From the NCBI GenBank assembly GCA_022600175.1, contig JAHZKW010000124.1:1-32504 (forward strand): 32,504 nucleotides of DNA. Direction: 5' to 3'. The translations under genes were made by a program, and so were the position numbers. Origin of the DNA: Campylobacterota bacterium (GTDB taxonomy: Bacteria; Campylobacterota; Campylobacteria; Campylobacterales; QNZT01). Shown here in pieces: positions 1,421 through 32,504 of this stretch (position 1 is its first letter; every line of letters begins with the position of its first letter). The notes under the pieces were generated by a model. The model did not search any database. It was given only the letters and a program-made list of their open reading frames with translations, and had not been told where the DNA came from.

Positions 1421-1451
1421 CTTCTCCTGACATTTGATTTATAAATGATTT

Positions 1452-1467
1452 TGCATAACTCATTCTA
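1452..1467 (-). promoter_or_regulatory. Sigma-54-like promoter for the PII-like gene: TAGAATGAGTTATGCA
   Basis: Matches the repeated nif-locus pattern WAGNAY-N5-NTGCA; 14/16 identical to the nifW site; about 31 nt before the start codon. Confidence 0.6.
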
Positions 1468-1478
1468 CATAGACCACC

Positions 1479-1494
1479 AAGAACACTTCTTGCA
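1479..1494 (+). promoter_or_regulatory. Sigma-54-like promoter for nifU: AAGAACACTTCTTGCA
   Basis: Shared -24/-12 pattern; extended match CCAAGAACACNNCTTGCATA with the nifB site; about 32 nt before the nifU ATG. Confidence 0.7.
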
Positions 1495-1526
1495 TAAATC
1501 TTTTAAAAAATTATGAGGAGCAGCCA

Positions 1527-5779: not shown

Positions 5780-7039
5780 CTATAACATCTCTAATTGATA
5801 GAGAAATTTACGCTCTTTATAGGCAGGAATTTTTAACTCTTGTCTATACTTTGCGATGGCACGTCTTGTCATGACAAGCTTGAAACGCTCCTCCACACTC
5901 TCATGTAGATACTTATCACTATAAGGGCTCTCTTTCACTTCACTATCCACCAACCTTTTGATAAAAAACTTGATCTCTGAAGCAGAGGTATTGCCTATAG
6001 CATTAGAGAAAAAATCTTTAAAAGAGTATATACCTCTTTCTGTCTGAATATATTTATTGTCAATTGCACGTGAGATGGTGGATTCATTAAAACCTAACAT
6101 ATCTGCGATATCTTGTAACTTTAACGGCTTTAACTCTCCCCCTAAAAAGAAGTTATACTGCCGCTCTACAATGGCTAGGGTGATATTGTACAGGGTCGCT
6201 TTTCTAAGGTCTAAAAGCTTGACTAGTTCTCTGGCTTCTTTGAGTTTTTGTTTGATAAACTTCTCTTCACTCTTAGGTTGTTGTATCTCGATCTTTGGGT
6301 AAAATTGATTATTGATCTCAATCTCTAACTTATCTTTTTTAAACACAACAAAGAGTTCTGGAATAATCGGTTTTGTCTCTTCCATGTAGGCTAAAGCAGG
6401 TGGGTTTTTAAAGTGTTTGATCACCTCTTTGGCTTCACTGATACGTGGATGTTTTAAAAATTTTTCAAACTTCTCAAACTGCAAAATCAATGCACTCAAA
6501 AGTATACTCAACTCGTCATCGATGTCAAATTCACCGAGTTGAAATAAAAAAGCTTCTTTATAATCCACTGCACCTACCCCATAAGGCTGAAGGTATGCAA
6601 AACGCTGTCTCACTGCTTCAGCTTTTTGTGCTGTAGTGTCACATAACTTTGCAATCTCTTTGATATCTCCTTCAAAATAGCCTTCATCACTGATATGTTT
6701 AATAATCTCTTCTGCTATTTTTTCTGAAACAGGCGTAGGAAAAAGTGGCGCTTCTATCTGCTTTTGTACTTTTTCGTAGAGTGATTCACCACTGATAGTT
6801 ACCTCTTCAAAAAACTCGGAGACTGCATTACTGACATGATTGCTATACTCTGCATAAGCACTTTTACGTTTATGTCTATCCTGTGTAAATCCATCTTTGA
6901 CATCTAAACAGGGATTTTCACTGATATACGAGTGCAGATGTGAATCAAGCTGATCTAATGAACATTGAAGCAGTGGTATCCATGTCTTCATTGCCAATTT
7001 TGGTACTTGTTTTTGTTTGAAAAGAAATTCTTGTTTCAT
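5780..7039 (-). CDS. rpoN: RNA polymerase sigma-54 factor
   Basis: 419 aa; Gln-rich region I, HTH region (LQDIADMLGFNESTISRAIDNKYIQTERGIYSFKDFFS) and RpoN box TRRAIAKYRQELKIP. Confidence 0.92.
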   Translation of the reverse strand: MKQEFLFKQKQVPKLAMKTWIPLLQCSLDQLDSHLHSYISENPCLDVKDGFTQDRHKRKSAYAEYSNHVSNAVSEFFEEVTISGESLYEKVQKQIEAPLFPTPVSEKIAEEIIKHISDEGYFEGDIKEIAKLCDTTAQKAEAVRQRFAYLQPYGVGAVDYKEAFLFQLGEFDIDDELSILLSALILQFEKFEKFLKHPRISEAKEVIKHFKNPPALAYMEETKPIIPELFVVFKKDKLEIEINNQFYPKIEIQQPKSEEKFIKQKLKEARELVKLLDLRKATLYNITLAIVERQYNFFLGGELKPLKLQDIADMLGFNESTISRAIDNKYIQTERGIYSFKDFFSNAIGNTSASEIKFFIKRLVDSEVKESPYSDKYLHESVEERFKLVMTRRAIAKYRQELKIPAYKERKFLYQLEML

Positions 7040-7157
7040 AAAGGAACCTCAATTTTTACATACATGCTTTTACACAAAGTTTACTCTTATTTTAGGGATT
7101 TTTCTTGATCTGATTGATCAATTTTTCTGCATTTGTAAAAATAGTAGACATCAATAC

Positions 7158-7174
7158 CAAGGAGAGACTCCTTG
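7158..7174 (-). terminator. Stem-loop between the 7206 ferredoxin stop and the rpoN start; probable transcript end
   Basis: CAAGGAG-AGA-CTCCTTG, 7-bp perfect stem, partially extendable; T-rich stretch further downstream on the minus strand. Confidence 0.5.
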
Positions 7175-7205
7175 ATATCAATCAAAATTTTTACAGGGCA
7201 TATTT

Positions 7206-7496
7206 TTAGTATTTTAATCTCACAAGACCATTAGGCTCGATGATTTTCATCTGACATGCTAATCTTGCTTTAGCACTAGTCTCACCAACTGTTTTTAAAA
7301 CAGTCTCCTCTTTTTCGTTTTTATCATTTAAAAACTCCATACCGCTCTCAACAAGTACAATACATGTACCACACTCACCATCTCTACAACCAAATGGCAA
7401 TGCACTTCCTGATGCTTCAACAATATCTTGGATTGTCTTACCTGGTTTTACATTGATTGCTAAAAAGTCATTTACGATTTCTACTCTTGTTGTCAT
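7206..7496 (-). CDS. [2Fe-2S] plant-type ferredoxin
   Basis: FGCRDGECGTCIVLVESG...RLACQM motif. Confidence 0.85.
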   Translation of the reverse strand: MTTRVEIVNDFLAINVKPGKTIQDIVEASGSALPFGCRDGECGTCIVLVESGMEFLNDKNEKEETVLKTVGETSAKARLACQMKIIEPNGLVRLKY

Positions 7497-7509
7497 TATC
7501 TCTCCTTTT

Positions 7510-7908
7510 TTATTCGAATGGTTTTACGAGCATTGGCCCTTTGATGATGCATTGACATGCAAGTCTCACAGGTGTTTGCTGTACGTACTGTTGCGCACTT
7601 TCAGCCTCTTTTTTTGTGATTGCTCCCATCTCGACTAAAGTATCTAACTCTTTATCTTCCATATACGTTGTATATTTATCTTTATCCCACGCATCTGGAT
7701 CAACTGTGCTCTCAAATTGTTTATTAGTATCTGGATCACCGCCCAACTCTTCTACTCTTACTGCACAGCTTCCACACATTCCATCTTTACATTCAGTTGG
7801 AATTGTTACACCATTGTTTGATGCAACACGAAGCAATACATCACCTTGTTTAGCAAAAATACGTTTATCTTGCCCTTCACCAAAACCACAGAAAATAATG
7901 TTCACCAT
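7510..7908 (-). CDS. [2Fe-2S] ferredoxin with long insertion before the last Cys
   Basis: TECKDGMCGSCAVRVEELGG...VRLACQCIIKG; longer than usual spacing between Cys3 and Cys4. Confidence 0.83.
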   Translation of the reverse strand: MVNIIFCGFGEGQDKRIFAKQGDVLLRVASNNGVTIPTECKDGMCGSCAVRVEELGGDPDTNKQFESTVDPDAWDKDKYTTYMEDKELDTLVEMGAITKKEAESAQQYVQQTPVRLACQCIIKGPMLVKPFE

Positions 7909-7980
7909 CTGTTGACTCCTTTAATTTTTTCCCATTCCCCAACAAAAATGCCAAAAGCATCTTTGCAAGAGCATAGAATA

Positions 7981-8361
7981 CTATAGCTCTTGTGCCTTTT
8001 GAGCTGCTTTTTTTGCTCGATGTTCTTTCAACCATCGAAGCTCTTCAGCCACTTCATCAACTTCACCTTCAGCATCTAAATCTACTACTTCAAGCTCTGC
8101 TTCACGGCACCCAAAGATAAAACCATCTTCAAAAAAGTTTACTTCATAGACACGAATAGATTGTAAAAAATCACCAATCTTTCGTACATACCCTTCAGCC
8201 CCTGTATCGACAAGTATATCTCCCGTATTGGCATAAGGGTAGGTACCGTCATTTCGTATTGTTTTAATCAACCTAACACGTTGTCCAATCTTAAAGACTG
8301 GAAGAATCTCATCTTTAGTTGAAGCTGAGACCATGTCCTGTTGAGCAGGTGTGAGCTCCAC
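7981..8361 (-). CDS. nifZ: NifZ family protein
   Basis: FKIGQRVRLIKTIRNDGTYPYANTGDILVDTGAEGYVRKIGDFLQSIRVYEVNF, characteristic of NifZ; overlaps nifW. Confidence 0.83.
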   Translation of the reverse strand: MELTPAQQDMVSASTKDEILPVFKIGQRVRLIKTIRNDGTYPYANTGDILVDTGAEGYVRKIGDFLQSIRVYEVNFFEDGFIFGCREAELEVVDLDAEGEVDEVAEELRWLKEHRAKKAAQKAQEL

Positions 8362-8692
8362 TTTCGACTCCTTCTATATCATCACATGAGGTTGAGGTGG
8401 TACAGGTACCACAAGGGGTTGGCTTACCAAACATATCCCATACTTCAGCAGCAGAAGGGCTATAACCATTTTCAAAACTCTTGTAGACCGAAAGTAGTGC
8501 AAATTTGTAGTACTCTAAAAACTCCTCTTCAGTCTCAAAACTATCATCCATAGCGCGATCTACCATCTCTCCAAATTTTTTCAAAATATGAAAACGTTTG
8601 ACATACACAAGACGTTCATCATACTCTAGATCAAAAAACTCAAAATACTCTTCGGCATCTGTAAGCGTCTTAAACTCTTCTATGCTGTTCAT
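8315..8692 (-). CDS. nifW: NifW nitrogenase-stabilising/protective protein with Cys-rich C-terminal tail
   Basis: FKTLTDAEEYFEFFDLEYDERLVYVKRFHILKKFG matches NifW; unusual tail PCGTCTTSTSCDDIEGVESGAHTCSTGHG. Confidence 0.82.
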   Translation of the reverse strand: MNSIEEFKTLTDAEEYFEFFDLEYDERLVYVKRFHILKKFGEMVDRAMDDSFETEEEFLEYYKFALLSVYKSFENGYSPSAAEVWDMFGKPTPCGTCTTSTSCDDIEGVESGAHTCSTGHGLSFN

Positions 8693-8720
8693 GATTTATC
8701 CTTTCGTTTTAGTTATCACT

Positions 8721-8736
8721 TGCATAATACATTCTA
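8721..8736 (-). promoter_or_regulatory. Sigma-54-like promoter for nifW-nifZ: TAGAATGTATTATGCA
   Basis: Nearly identical to the PII-like gene site; 28 nt before the nifW start; RBS-like AAAGGA between. Confidence 0.55.
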
Positions 8737-8743
8737 GTCATTT

Positions 8744-10142: not shown

Positions 10143-11433
10143 GATGTTTTACCTCTCGAAGTTTATTTGCTATCTCAAACAAAAAATAACAGCTCCCTTC
10201 ATAGTGCTGATCATTTTTCAGTTGGTTACCTAGCTCCTCATAATTTGGAAATCCGCGAAGTACCAACCCTGTATGTTTTTTATCATGCAATAACCGTTCT
10301 GCATGAAAATTACTAATGACAAGATCTGTTTTATGAAAAAGATCTTTGGCATCTTCGAGGTCTCCAACGAAAACGCGTTTAGCTTCGATACGCTTTAGAA
10401 CAGGTGAACGTACTGTAGAGATCGCCGCATCAACAGTACCTCCAACACTACGTACCAGGGCACACATCCCAACTAACATATCAGGTTCACCTGTCACCAC
10501 AAAGTGAGATGAGCCTGTAAGAAAATGGGCATCTAACATCGCATCTTGTAATCTTCCTCGCCATCTTTTGATAGAAGGTAACGGATCAATTTGTCGTATC
10601 TGCATCAACGTAGCAACAAAATTGTCACTCGCTTCCAATCCCATCACATGATCAAAGTGGATATGTTTGATATTTTCATTTTTTGAAACTAACGCTTCTG
10701 CAGCAATCTGCATAGAGCTACCTATAGAGATCACCGTACTGCTATCCCCCAATGCCCTAATCTCCTCTACCGTAATCGCACCTGTGGCCAGTTTGCCCTG
10801 TCCCTCATCGAGGTAACCATCTAGGGCTGTTGAGAGATCAGGTAAGGCATAGGTCTCTAATCCAAACGAACTACAGAGCTCTTTAAGCCTTTCAACTTCA
10901 ATGGGTTGCATACTCACATGAGGAAGTAGTACAATCTTTTCAGCTTTGATCTCCAGACTAGGTTCACATAATTGCTCTATGAGAGATTTTGCAGTAAGTG
11001 CCCAACCACTCTCCATACCACCTTCATAATCAGGGGTATTGACATAACAATAGGGAATCTCAATGTGCATCCCAACCCCACGTACATCATCCCCTTTGGT
11101 CTCTGTCAAGCCTGTTGTATGCAGTCCAATGAGTTGAGGTTTGAGCTTTTTATTTTTCTTGGTGATATTTTCAATCGCCATCAAAATAGAGTAATCTCCA
11201 CCATCTAAAACTGCCGTAATATCACTCACAGAAGTGTTGTACATAGCGATAGGTTCATTGAAGTGCCTGGTATAAAAAACTTTTGTATACGAAGCACACC
11301 CTTGTGAAGCATGCATCAAAGGTAAACAACCCTCAACACCCATAAAGGCTAAAGCCGCACCCATAGGCTGAGAATGTTTGATAGGGTTTACTTGTAGAGG
11401 TTTGTGGTTTTCTTGTGTGGGTTCTCTCTCCAT
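10135..11433 (-). CDS. nifN: NifN, FeMo-cofactor scaffold subunit
   Basis: PLQVNPIKHSQPMGAALAFMGVEGCLPLMHASQGCASYTKVFYTRHFNEPIAMYNTSV typical of NifN. Confidence 0.92.
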   Translation of the reverse strand: MEREPTQENHKPLQVNPIKHSQPMGAALAFMGVEGCLPLMHASQGCASYTKVFYTRHFNEPIAMYNTSVSDITAVLDGGDYSILMAIENITKKNKKLKPQLIGLHTTGLTETKGDDVRGVGMHIEIPYCYVNTPDYEGGMESGWALTAKSLIEQLCEPSLEIKAEKIVLLPHVSMQPIEVERLKELCSSFGLETYALPDLSTALDGYLDEGQGKLATGAITVEEIRALGDSSTVISIGSSMQIAAEALVSKNENIKHIHFDHVMGLEASDNFVATLMQIRQIDPLPSIKRWRGRLQDAMLDAHFLTGSSHFVVTGEPDMLVGMCALVRSVGGTVDAAISTVRSPVLKRIEAKRVFVGDLEDAKDLFHKTDLVISNFHAERLLHDKKHTGLVLRGFPNYEELGNQLKNDQHYEGSCYFLFEIANKLREVKHHG

Positions 11434-11467
11434 GGCAACTCCTTGTTATGAGAAGGAGTGCAAGAAG
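11422..11467. repeat. Direct repeat copy 1: nifN RBS/start region
   Basis: 40/46 identical to 11901-11946. Confidence 0.7.
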
Positions 11468-11474
11468 TGTGCTA
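11459..11474 (-). promoter_or_regulatory. Sigma-54-like promoter for nifN: TAGCACACTTCTTGCA
   Basis: Closest of the set to canonical TGGCAC-N5-TTGCA (one -24 mismatch); 25 nt before nifN ATG. Confidence 0.7.
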
Positions 11475-11556
11475 GCTTGATATTCGTACTTTTACTATAC
11501 CAAATTTATGCATTAAGATAATGCTTATAAGGACCAATTATAAAGAAGATTTAATC

Positions 11557-13854: not shown

Positions 13855-13886
13855 TTTGTACGCTCCTTGCATCTTTTTTAAACTAA

Positions 13887-13902
13887 TGCAAGAAATGTAC
13901 TA
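13887..13902 (-). promoter_or_regulatory. Sigma-54-like promoter for nifE: TAGTACATTTCTTGCA
   Basis: Shared pattern; about 32 nt before the revised nifE start. Confidence 0.7.
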
Positions 13903-13971
13903 GCACCGTATCATTAAAAGCGTATTAAAAATGATAGGTTATGATATGCGTAAAGTTTCAAGGAGAGATTT

Positions 13972-19947: not shown

Positions 19948-20598
19948 TTACATCTCAGTAATGATGTTATGTCGATACTTTTTACCTAACCAATTTTTAT
20001 CTTTATCAAACTGTTCATTTTCAGCTTCAGTCATTTTTTCACCATTTAGCTTGGTACGTTTATGAATTGTTTTTAGTTTGTTTCCGACTAACTCTTCATT
20101 GGTACTGTTTTTGACCATTGTACTAACACCTTTGAGGCCACTTTTTGGAAATGGTAGATCACAGTAGTAATCTCCAGCCGTATTAACTCCCCAATAGATA
20201 AAACCAAGCTTGTCATAAAACTGAAGTGCCCCAGGAACAGCACAAAACTTAAAACGCTTGACATTTAACAACATACTAAGATCAAACTGTTGAGATAACA
20301 ACTCTTTAGCATAGCCCAGTTTTCTAAATATATGTGGTGTAAATAGATTATGAATCGTGAGATATTCCAAGTATCGGTCACTCTTTCCAAAAAGGTATGA
20401 GAGGTGCTGCTCTTTTTCATCTACCAACACTAAACATTTATCTTTTTTCCAGTTAAAATGTTTATCCCACCAGGCAAGTGAATTTTCACCAAACCTTTTA
20501 CTCTTTGCATCACTGATCATATCAATGGAATCGATATAGTCACTGCGTGACAAGAGTATAGTCTTCATAAGATAAATGGCATTAGTATGAACCTTCAC
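19948..20598 (-). CDS. GNAT-like protein
   Basis: LFTPHIFRKLGYAKELLSQQF...RFKFCAVPGALQFYDKLGFIYWG resembles GNAT motifs A/B. Confidence 0.5.
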   Translation of the reverse strand: MKVHTNAIYLMKTILLSRSDYIDSIDMISDAKSKRFGENSLAWWDKHFNWKKDKCLVLVDEKEQHLSYLFGKSDRYLEYLTIHNLFTPHIFRKLGYAKELLSQQFDLSMLLNVKRFKFCAVPGALQFYDKLGFIYWGVNTAGDYYCDLPFPKSGLKGVSTMVKNSTNEELVGNKLKTIHKRTKLNGEKMTEAENEQFDKDKNWLGKKYRHNIITEM

Positions 20599-20794: not shown

Positions 20795-20826
20795 ATTCGT
20801 CCTTTAAAATGATATAAAACATGTAT

Positions 20827-20842
20827 TGCATAAAGTGTACGA
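20827..20842 (-). promoter_or_regulatory. Sigma-54-like promoter for the 70-aa ORF: TCGTACACTTTATGCA
   Basis: Close to the nifE site TAGTACATTTCTTGCA; about 32 nt before the start. Confidence 0.55.
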
Positions 20843-20877
20843 GTAGAGTAAAGACAAAATTGTAGGAATACACGCCC

Positions 20878-25411: not shown

Positions 25412-25426
25412 TTACATTAGAGAGTA

Positions 25427-25442
25427 TGCACATGATGTTCTA
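25427..25442 (-). promoter_or_regulatory. Sigma-54-like promoter for nifH: TAGAACATCATGTGCA
   Basis: Shared -24/-12 pattern; 45 nt before the nifH ATG. Confidence 0.6.
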
Positions 25443-25657
25443 GGGTTTTTGAGGATTATTAAAGAATACTTTGACACAAAATATACAAATATGTTGGAAT
25501 CAAAATTGCAAGTGTGCGACAAATTGTCATATTTTAAAATTATTGTCATCGAACACAAGCGTTTTGATTCTAAAGCGATATTTTGTCGTAAAGGTGTATA
25601 GAAATAAATTTAAGTAGAGTAGAGATCTATCCACTCAATTTTGAGTGGATATAAGGA

Positions 25658-31060: not shown

Positions 31061-31138
31061 TGCTTCTCCTTTGTAAATAAGATTTTTAAAGTTTGCAATG
31101 ATCTCACTTCATCTAGTTACAATCATTACAAGGATATA

Positions 31139-31154
31139 TGCAAGTTGTGTTCTT
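31139..31154 (-). promoter_or_regulatory. Sigma-54-like promoter for nifB: AAGAACACAACTTGCA
   Basis: CCAAGAACACNNCTTGCATA shared with nifU; 78 nt before nifB. Confidence 0.65.
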
Positions 31155-31235
31155 GGTAGTTTTTTCATATTGGTATCAAACTTGTCAAACAGTACTTTGG
31201 TCAATATGCTTACAGTACTGATTATATTAATTTGG

Positions 31236-31600: not shown

Positions 31601-31984
31601 TTAGTTACAACCACACTTACAAGTATCCGTCTCACCTGGATCTAACAGATCATCACAATTCTTACTGTCAACCAGTGTCACTTCTCCACTTTTAAACTTA
31701 CGATAGATCTCATCTAAACTCATGATGTCATTATAAGCTTTATAGACATTCATAGAGGCTTCTGAAAATGCCTTATAAACACCCTCACCCATGTGATAAA
31801 AAAGTGTGTCTGTAACACCTTTTGTTTTTAAAAAAGATGCGATTTTGTTCCCATTACCAAGTTCATCATTTTCAACCACTTTAAAATAACCTGTCGTTAA
31901 ATCCAAAAGTGCGAAAAAAGGAGCATTTCCATAAAGCTCGGAGATTTGTGTTGAACTACTACTGTTCAAAGGGATAGCTAGCAT
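31601..31984 (-). CDS. NifX/NifB-C-type (dinitrogenase iron-molybdenum cofactor family) protein with Cys tail
   Basis: MLAIPLNSSSSTQISELYGNAPFFALLDLTTGYFKVVEND...; C-terminus CDDLLDPGETDTCKCGCN. Confidence 0.7.
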   Translation of the reverse strand: MLAIPLNSSSSTQISELYGNAPFFALLDLTTGYFKVVENDELGNGNKIASFLKTKGVTDTLFYHMGEGVYKAFSEASMNVYKAYNDIMSLDEIYRKFKSGEVTLVDSKNCDDLLDPGETDTCKCGCN

Positions 31985-32021
31985 TGTTTTTCCTTATAAA
32001 TTAAAATATAAAAATGTTTTA

Positions 32022-32037
32022 TGCAATTTCCGTTCTA
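32022..32037 (-). promoter_or_regulatory. Sigma-54-like promoter for the NifX-like gene: TAGAACGGAAATTGCA
   Basis: Shared pattern; 37 nt before the start; back-to-back with 32055-32070. Confidence 0.65.
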
Positions 32038-32054
32038 GCAAGACAATCGTCAAC

Positions 32055-32070
32055 AAGAACAGAAATTGCA
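32055..32070 (+). promoter_or_regulatory. Sigma-54-like promoter for the Tpx-like gene: AAGAACAGAAATTGCA
   Basis: Shared pattern; 33 nt before GTG 32104 with AAGGAG at 32093-32098. Confidence 0.65.
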
Positions 32071-32103
32071 ACACTGCTTTGTAAAGCTTATAAAGGAGTT
32101 TAA

Positions 32104-32504
32104 GTGCAAGTTACACTAAATGCACAGACAATGATGTTAGAAGATATCCCTTTAGATGAGGGGTATGCCTCTGAAAAAGTCACGGCTAAAGATATGCGTG
32201 GAAAAGAGATCACCTTTGGTGGACAAAATGGTAAAACGCAGATCATTATCTCTGCTCCTTATCTAGATGAAGAGAACTTCAATGAATTTGATCAACTAAT
32301 GAAACATGAAGATCTTGCGATAGAAGATGTCCAAAAATATTTTATTCTCTCTTCAAAAGCAGATCTAAAAAGTGACTGTGATCTTCCTTTACTGATAGAT
32401 GAGGAGGAGCACTTTGGTGATGAGTTTGGTGTGCGTATCAGTGAAGCACCACTCAAAGGGAAACTTACCAAAGCACTTTTTATCGTTTCTAAAGATGGTG
32501 CCAT
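32104..32504 (+). CDS. Thiol peroxidase (Tpx)-like protein lacking the peroxidatic Cys; runs off the right edge
   Basis: Not in the ORF track. GTG start after AAGGAG: VQVTLNAQTMMLEDIPLDEGYASEKVTAKDMRGKEITFGGQNGKTQIIISAPYLDEENFNEFDQLM...HFGDEFGVRISEAPLKGKLTKALFIVSKDGA. Confidence 0.65.
   Translation, partial: MQVTLNAQTMMLEDIPLDEGYASEKVTAKDMRGKEITFGGQNGKTQIIISAPYLDEENFNEFDQLMKHEDLAIEDVQKYFILSSKADLKSDCDLPLLIDEEEHFGDEFGVRISEAPLKGKLTKALFIVSKDGA

Follow-up and report, generated by a model that had tools for sequence, protein, structure and literature searches.

Promoters read by sigma-54 share the -24/-12 consensus TGGCAC-N5-TTGC, whose GG in the -24 element counts as highly conserved; classical NifA-dependent promoters carry, in addition, an upstream site of the form TGT-N10-ACA. 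Some sigma-54 promoters deviate from the consensus (PMC12316311). In Cereibacter (Rhodobacter) sphaeroides, RpoN1 serves nif genes, RpoN2 serves flagellar genes, and promoter position -11 is reported to discriminate between the two (PMC11999139, citing Poggio 2006). In the literature covered by our search (subscription papers lay outside it), we found nothing on a promoter class with a base other than G at -25, nor on rpoN in the nif clusters of Sulfurimonas, Sulfurovum or Sulfuricurvum. Here we describe an inverted repeat in a Campylobacterota nif cluster, both arms of which have A at this position.

The window, that is, the whole 32,504-nucleotide stretch of DNA that was analysed, contains TGCAATTTCCGTTCT (32022-32036) and AGAACAGAAATTGCA (32056-32070), which form a 15-bp inverted repeat with one mismatch just as the original prediction had it. 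Allowing one mismatch and a gap no larger than 60, a scan of the window finds this 15-bp repeat and no other, and a bare palindrome of this kind lies within chance, two of six dinucleotide-shuffled windows having one. Unlike the bare palindrome, the match of both arms to one promoter-like element is beyond chance: the window has six occurrences of CWAGNACNNNNNTTGCA where 0.05 would be expected, a count reached in 0/100 shuffles, and the arms, which extend to the 18-mers listed in Table 1, are two of these six matches. The 15-bp arms are 19 bp apart; measured from one 18-mer to the other, the gap is 15 bp.

Both arms have G at -24 and, after N10, GC at -13/-12, which is the sigma-54 spacing, with TT before the GC (TTGCA in both arms); at -25/-24, however, they carry AG and not the canonical GG. 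Two outward-facing -24/-12 promoters had been proposed, a claim supported by the spacing and by the sites that orthologs of the flanking genes possess on their own, but not in its canonical form, and the proposed 17 bp between the -24 elements was near without being exact, the two -24 Gs lying 22 bp apart. Each arm stands 30-40 bp upstream of its own gene, and the identities suggested for these genes, NifX-like with a Cys-rich tail on the left and Tpx-like on the right, agree with the family matches in Table 1. If starts are predicted by counting 12 from the -12 C, the leaders are about 25 nt long; the start codons, ATG 31984 and GTG 32104, are each preceded by a Shine-Dalgarno-like AAGGA/AAGGAG. 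The predicted starts are 70 bp apart and the upstream footprint of sigma-54 is usually limited near -34, so a pair of holoenzymes at 32022-32070 would be almost in contact, and the two outward directions may therefore compete. These starts also bear on the idea that the repeat forms an RNA hairpin or a terminator, as an inverted repeat with a 19-nt loop might suggest; both lie outside the arms, so that the repeat would be in neither transcript, and with no terminator-like site and no Rfam match at the repeat we give this idea almost no credence. A sigma-70 promoter reading of the repeat was also checked and is not supported.

Table 1. Features of the window discussed in the text (positions count from its first nucleotide).
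Feature	Position	Strand	Sequence	Remarks
nifU-promoter outward partner	1451..1468	-	GTAGAATGAGTTATGCAA	before P-II gene 1028-1420; 9-bp gap
nifU RpoN2-class promoter	1478..1495	+	CAAGAACACTTCTTGCAT	exact class match
RpoN2, sigma-54 paralog in nif cluster	5780..7039	-	RpoN box MTRRAIAKYRQELKIPAYKERKFLY	419 aa; PF00309, PF04963, PF04552
nifN RpoN2-class promoter	11458..11475	-	CTAGCACACTTCTTGCAC	exact class match
nifE RpoN2-class promoter	13886..13903	-	CTAGTACATTTCTTGCAT	exact class match
nifH RpoN2-class promoter	25426..25443	-	CTAGAACATCATGTGCAT	near-copy, seventh in window
nifH outward partner	25494..25511	+	TTGGAATCAAAATTGCAA	GG form; 50 bp from nifH site
nifB RpoN2-class promoter	31138..31155	-	CAAGAACACAACTTGCAT	exact class match
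NifX-like gene, Cys-rich tail	31601..31984	-		127 aa; PF02579, E=4.6e-10
Left arm, putative RpoN2-class promoter	32021..32038	-	CTAGAACGGAAATTGCAT	predicted start 32011; would drive NifX-like gene
Right arm, putative RpoN2-class promoter	32054..32071	+	CAAGAACAGAAATTGCAA	predicted start 32081; would drive redoxin gene
Redoxin/Tpx-like gene	32104..32504	+		GTG start; truncated by window end; full-length ortholog in G012 above PF08534 cut-off

The class to which both arms belong, C[A/T]AGNAC-N5-TTGCA (CWAGNAC-N5-TTGCA), has A in place of the usual G at -25. Its six exact copies, each oriented toward a gene and just upstream of it, stand before nifU, nifN, nifE, nifB, the NifX-like gene and the redoxin gene, and A is the -25 base of the two arms and of every one of the seven nif promoters of the window, the near-copy before nifH included, as it is wherever a nif promoter was found in the source genome. 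No canonical TGGMAC-N5-TTGC site was found in the 32-kb window, so promoter surveys built on GG would miss the whole nif regulon. Both arms also fall within the wider class found upstream of nif genes in genomes that carry a member of the RpoN2 clade (C[AT]AGNAC or CTCGNAC-N5-TTGCA, with a non-G -25), and we infer that the repeat consists of two promoters of the class named after RpoN2. Further class-like sites in the window are CTAGAATGTATTATGCAA (8720-8737, minus strand), upstream of a gene at 8315-8692, and CTCGTACACTTTATGCAA (20826-20843, minus strand), upstream of a gene at 19948-20598. Genome-wide scans were done by sequence patterns. A match to AGAAC-N5-TTGCA (AGAAC...TTGCAT) at 10285-10302 (minus strand) was set aside, as it lies in conserved coding sequence inside nifN; it recurs in most RpoN2 genomes and is a trap for promoter scans. 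The genome-wide pattern RGNAC-N5-TTGCA proved too loose, many of its matches probably lying in coding sequence.

Conservation in related genomes, which the original prediction had named as a check, holds for each arm before its own gene and fails for the pair. The NifX-like orthologs of G086, G097 and G140 have a sigma-54 site alone, in the GG form (in G086 the gene diverges from nifE, the 18-mers being just 8 bp apart), and a site precedes the redoxin orthologs of G012 (CAAGAATAAAAGTTGCAA), G020, G108, G128, G130, G138 and G140; in RpoN2 genomes the redoxin gene is often divergent from nifB. In none of the relatives examined are the NifX-like and redoxin genes adjacent, and the palindrome therefore seems to be a novelty of the source bacterium's lineage. 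The absence of the pair elsewhere would suit a reading in which one arm is a working promoter and the other a chance or decayed match, but the separate conservation of each arm, together with the frequency of outward pairs in the regulon (see below), makes that reading unlikely. Alternatively, the repeat could be a dyad operator, with a repressor or activator dimer on two 15-bp arms and no promoters; its near-perfect symmetry (14/15) and the 34 bp between the arms, about three helical turns, are in keeping with such a site. Against this, other nif operons are preceded by single, oriented copies of the same class, just one arm is present in relatives (the G012 redoxin, for example), and the additional spacer match of the arms (4/5 outside the promoter consensus) also occurs in 8.5% of random nif-promoter pairs. 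Moreover, outward promoters of one class inevitably form an inverted repeat, so a dyad-binding protein is not required, and we regard an operator as decidedly improbable beside a pair of promoters.

The source genome has two sigma-54 genes, a general RpoN (C17:749) and the RpoN2 of the nif cluster. RpoN2 belongs to the sigma-54 family: the activator-interacting, core-binding and DNA-binding domains all score over cut-off, and RRAIAKYR fits the RRxxxKYR box. Scanning one genome per species with nif-cluster RpoN proteins yielded 54 loci, mostly from Sulfuricurvum, Sulfurimonas and Sulfurovum MAGs, and nif genes lie beside nearly all of them. The 49 RpoN2 genomes that were searched for sigma-54 genes have at least two in 39 cases and one in 10. 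In a 96-sequence tree the RpoN2 proteins form a single clade (SH-aLRT 100) that adjoins the RpoN of diazotrophs with one such gene, G061 and G086 among them. The arginines R455 and R456 of E. coli, required for -24 binding (PMC7175178), have equivalents in the RpoN2 proteins. At the equivalent of E. coli S470, RpoN2 proteins have F/Y (53/53) where other RpoN proteins have S (72/72); at Q475 they have F as against K/Q/R, and at T457 mostly S/V/L/A as against T in nearly all others. Candidate specificity residues are thereby narrowed to a few positions beside the RpoN box.

We further scanned upstream of nifE, nifN, nifU, nifH, nifB, the NifX-like gene, the redoxin gene and flgB with a score blind to -25. 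In genomes with both sigma-54 types, the -25 base of nif sites is A in 53, C in 31 and G in 1 (n=85), against G at 30/30 flgB sites, and C occupies -27 in 63/85 nif promoters; -11 is A in 85/85 nif promoters and T at 30/30 flgB sites, a contrast that could be partly gene-specific since the flgB set is one gene family. Diazotrophs whose one RpoN lies outside the RpoN2 clade have the -25 G in 9/9 nif promoters, and genomes with two RpoN, none of that clade, have it in 6/6, so the -25 change tracks the RpoN2 clade and not RpoN number; the notion that any second RpoN causes loss of the G was rejected, as G040, G094 and G070 have two RpoN yet GG. RpoN2-only genomes without flgB are mixed, with G in 10/16: a Sulfurovum-like clade is back to GG, a return that is one event on the tree with the mixed genomes G099 and G118 at its base, and G104 and G114 have no -25 G. 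Because the compared genomes are all related (mostly MAGs) and about two changes on the tree suffice for the -25 state, small Fisher P values overstate independence, and we describe the contrast only. It nevertheless speaks to the reading in which general RpoN reads both arms, RpoN2 is redundant and drift at -25 is tolerated. Deviating sigma-54 promoters are on record, as noted at the outset, and the -24 G and -12 GC of the arms are intact, but the bases at -25 and -27 in nif promoters are not random, flgB keeps its G, and RpoN2 is encoded within nif clusters, all of which leaves this reading with little probability compared with recognition by RpoN2.

Sites of the general-RpoN type, TGG[AC]A[CT]-N5-TTGCTT, number 8 in the source genome against 0 in the control, and one of them lies before flgI. 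The genome encodes RpoN and, on contig C101, an AAA+ activator, a NifA-like protein with GAF, AAA+ and Fis-type HTH domains. Around this activator are four further AG sites, preceding a flavodiiron-like gene, a second redoxin gene, a ferredoxin operon and a MoxR-like operon; names given on C101 without a family search denote sequence resemblance only. The second redoxin gene (L070, 6043-6591, minus strand) is divergent from the NifA-like activator (6717-8285, plus strand) and has an AG-type site of its own at 6621-6638. The nif upstream regions show no enrichment of TGT-N10-ACA, the classical NifA site (11/127, against 11.1 in shuffles), and in this respect do not look classically NifA-dependent. 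In RpoN2 genomes, TTGTC/GACAA half-sites reach 2.0 per 110 nt upstream of nifH, against 0.18, and 0.74 upstream of nifU, where they often take the form TGACAAAAATGTCA immediately before the -24 element; they are not dense upstream of nifE, nifN or flgB. TTGTC/GACAA is a candidate regulator site, possibly for an activator or a repressor.

Outward pairing is not unique to 32022-32070 but common in the nif regulon: in the 150 bp upstream of each of 127 nif promoters, an outward-facing class match is present in 62 cases and a same-direction match in 2, while flgB sites have an outward partner in 0/33 cases. The window itself holds three back-to-back pairs, namely nifU/P-II, NifX-like/redoxin and nifH, with gaps of 9, 15 and 50 bp, respectively. 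Gaps recur across genomes, at 6-11 bp for nifE, 32 bp for nifU (Sulfuricurvum) and, in 29 genomes, 59 bp (Sulfuricurvum-type) or 68-70 bp (Sulfurimonas-/Sulfurovum-type) for nifH, the two nifH groups differing by about one helical turn. No gene was found in front of the nifH partner site in the window, and apparently no conserved gene stands there in the relatives' cases checked; kept at fixed distances in this way, the partner may modulate nifH transcription or give rise to a small RNA. A conserved ATTCYTACAAATTTGT block lies beside the nifH partner site in relatives. Outward sigma-54 pairs may even be a built-in device of the nif regulon and not simply a consequence of divergent genes, with tail-to-tail holoenzymes sharing or competing for one activator, although we hold this idea only tentatively and think it somewhat doubtful.

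We consider it probable that the repeat is a back-to-back pair of nif-specific, non-G -25 promoters, most likely read by RpoN2, activated by a NifA-type protein and insulated from general RpoN. The left promoter would serve the NifX-like gene and the right one the redoxin gene; RNA polymerase carrying RpoN2, encoded in the same nif cluster, would most likely read CWAGNAC-N5-TTGCA, and the NifA-type activator, whose gene lies elsewhere in the genome, would switch the class on, possibly acting on both promoters of the pair. General RpoN would read the TGG[AC]A[CT]-N5-TTGCTT promoters of motility genes. Separation of the two sigma-54 systems would come from the lost -25 G combined with A in place of T at -11, so that the cell could control nitrogen fixation and swimming separately. 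The locus would then belong to a larger system in which nif has a sigma-54 to itself, with a -24 element of its own and RpoN2 as the predicted reader. If RpoN2 does read AG/CG promoters, this would be a natural case in which the -24 element separates two sigma-54 factors, RpoN2 could serve as an orthogonal sigma-54 part, and the system would suggest how Campylobacterota control nif and motility genes apart.

Like canonical sigma-54 promoters, those described here have the -24 G, GC at -13/-12 and exact N10 and lie upstream of nif genes; they differ in having A/C at -25 and a preference for C at -27, and they do so across a whole regulon and not at a single weak site. The single-RpoN Campylobacterota diazotrophs G061, G086 and G097 share the same nif genes and the TGCA-type -12, and G086 has the divergent NifX-like/nifE pair, but they have one RpoN and GG at -25/-24. 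G040, G094 and G070 likewise have two RpoN genes, one of them in the nif cluster, but this nif-cluster RpoN lies outside the RpoN2 clade, its box end is canonical, and the nif promoters are GG. As in Cereibacter sphaeroides, nif and motility may be divided between separate sigma-54 paralogs; the promoter classes are distinct in sequence here, with -11 being A at nif and T at flgB. Unlike that pair, the present one belongs to the Campylobacterota and shows an additional difference at -25, within the -24 element contacted by the RpoN box, which is not mentioned in the account cited (PMC11999139).
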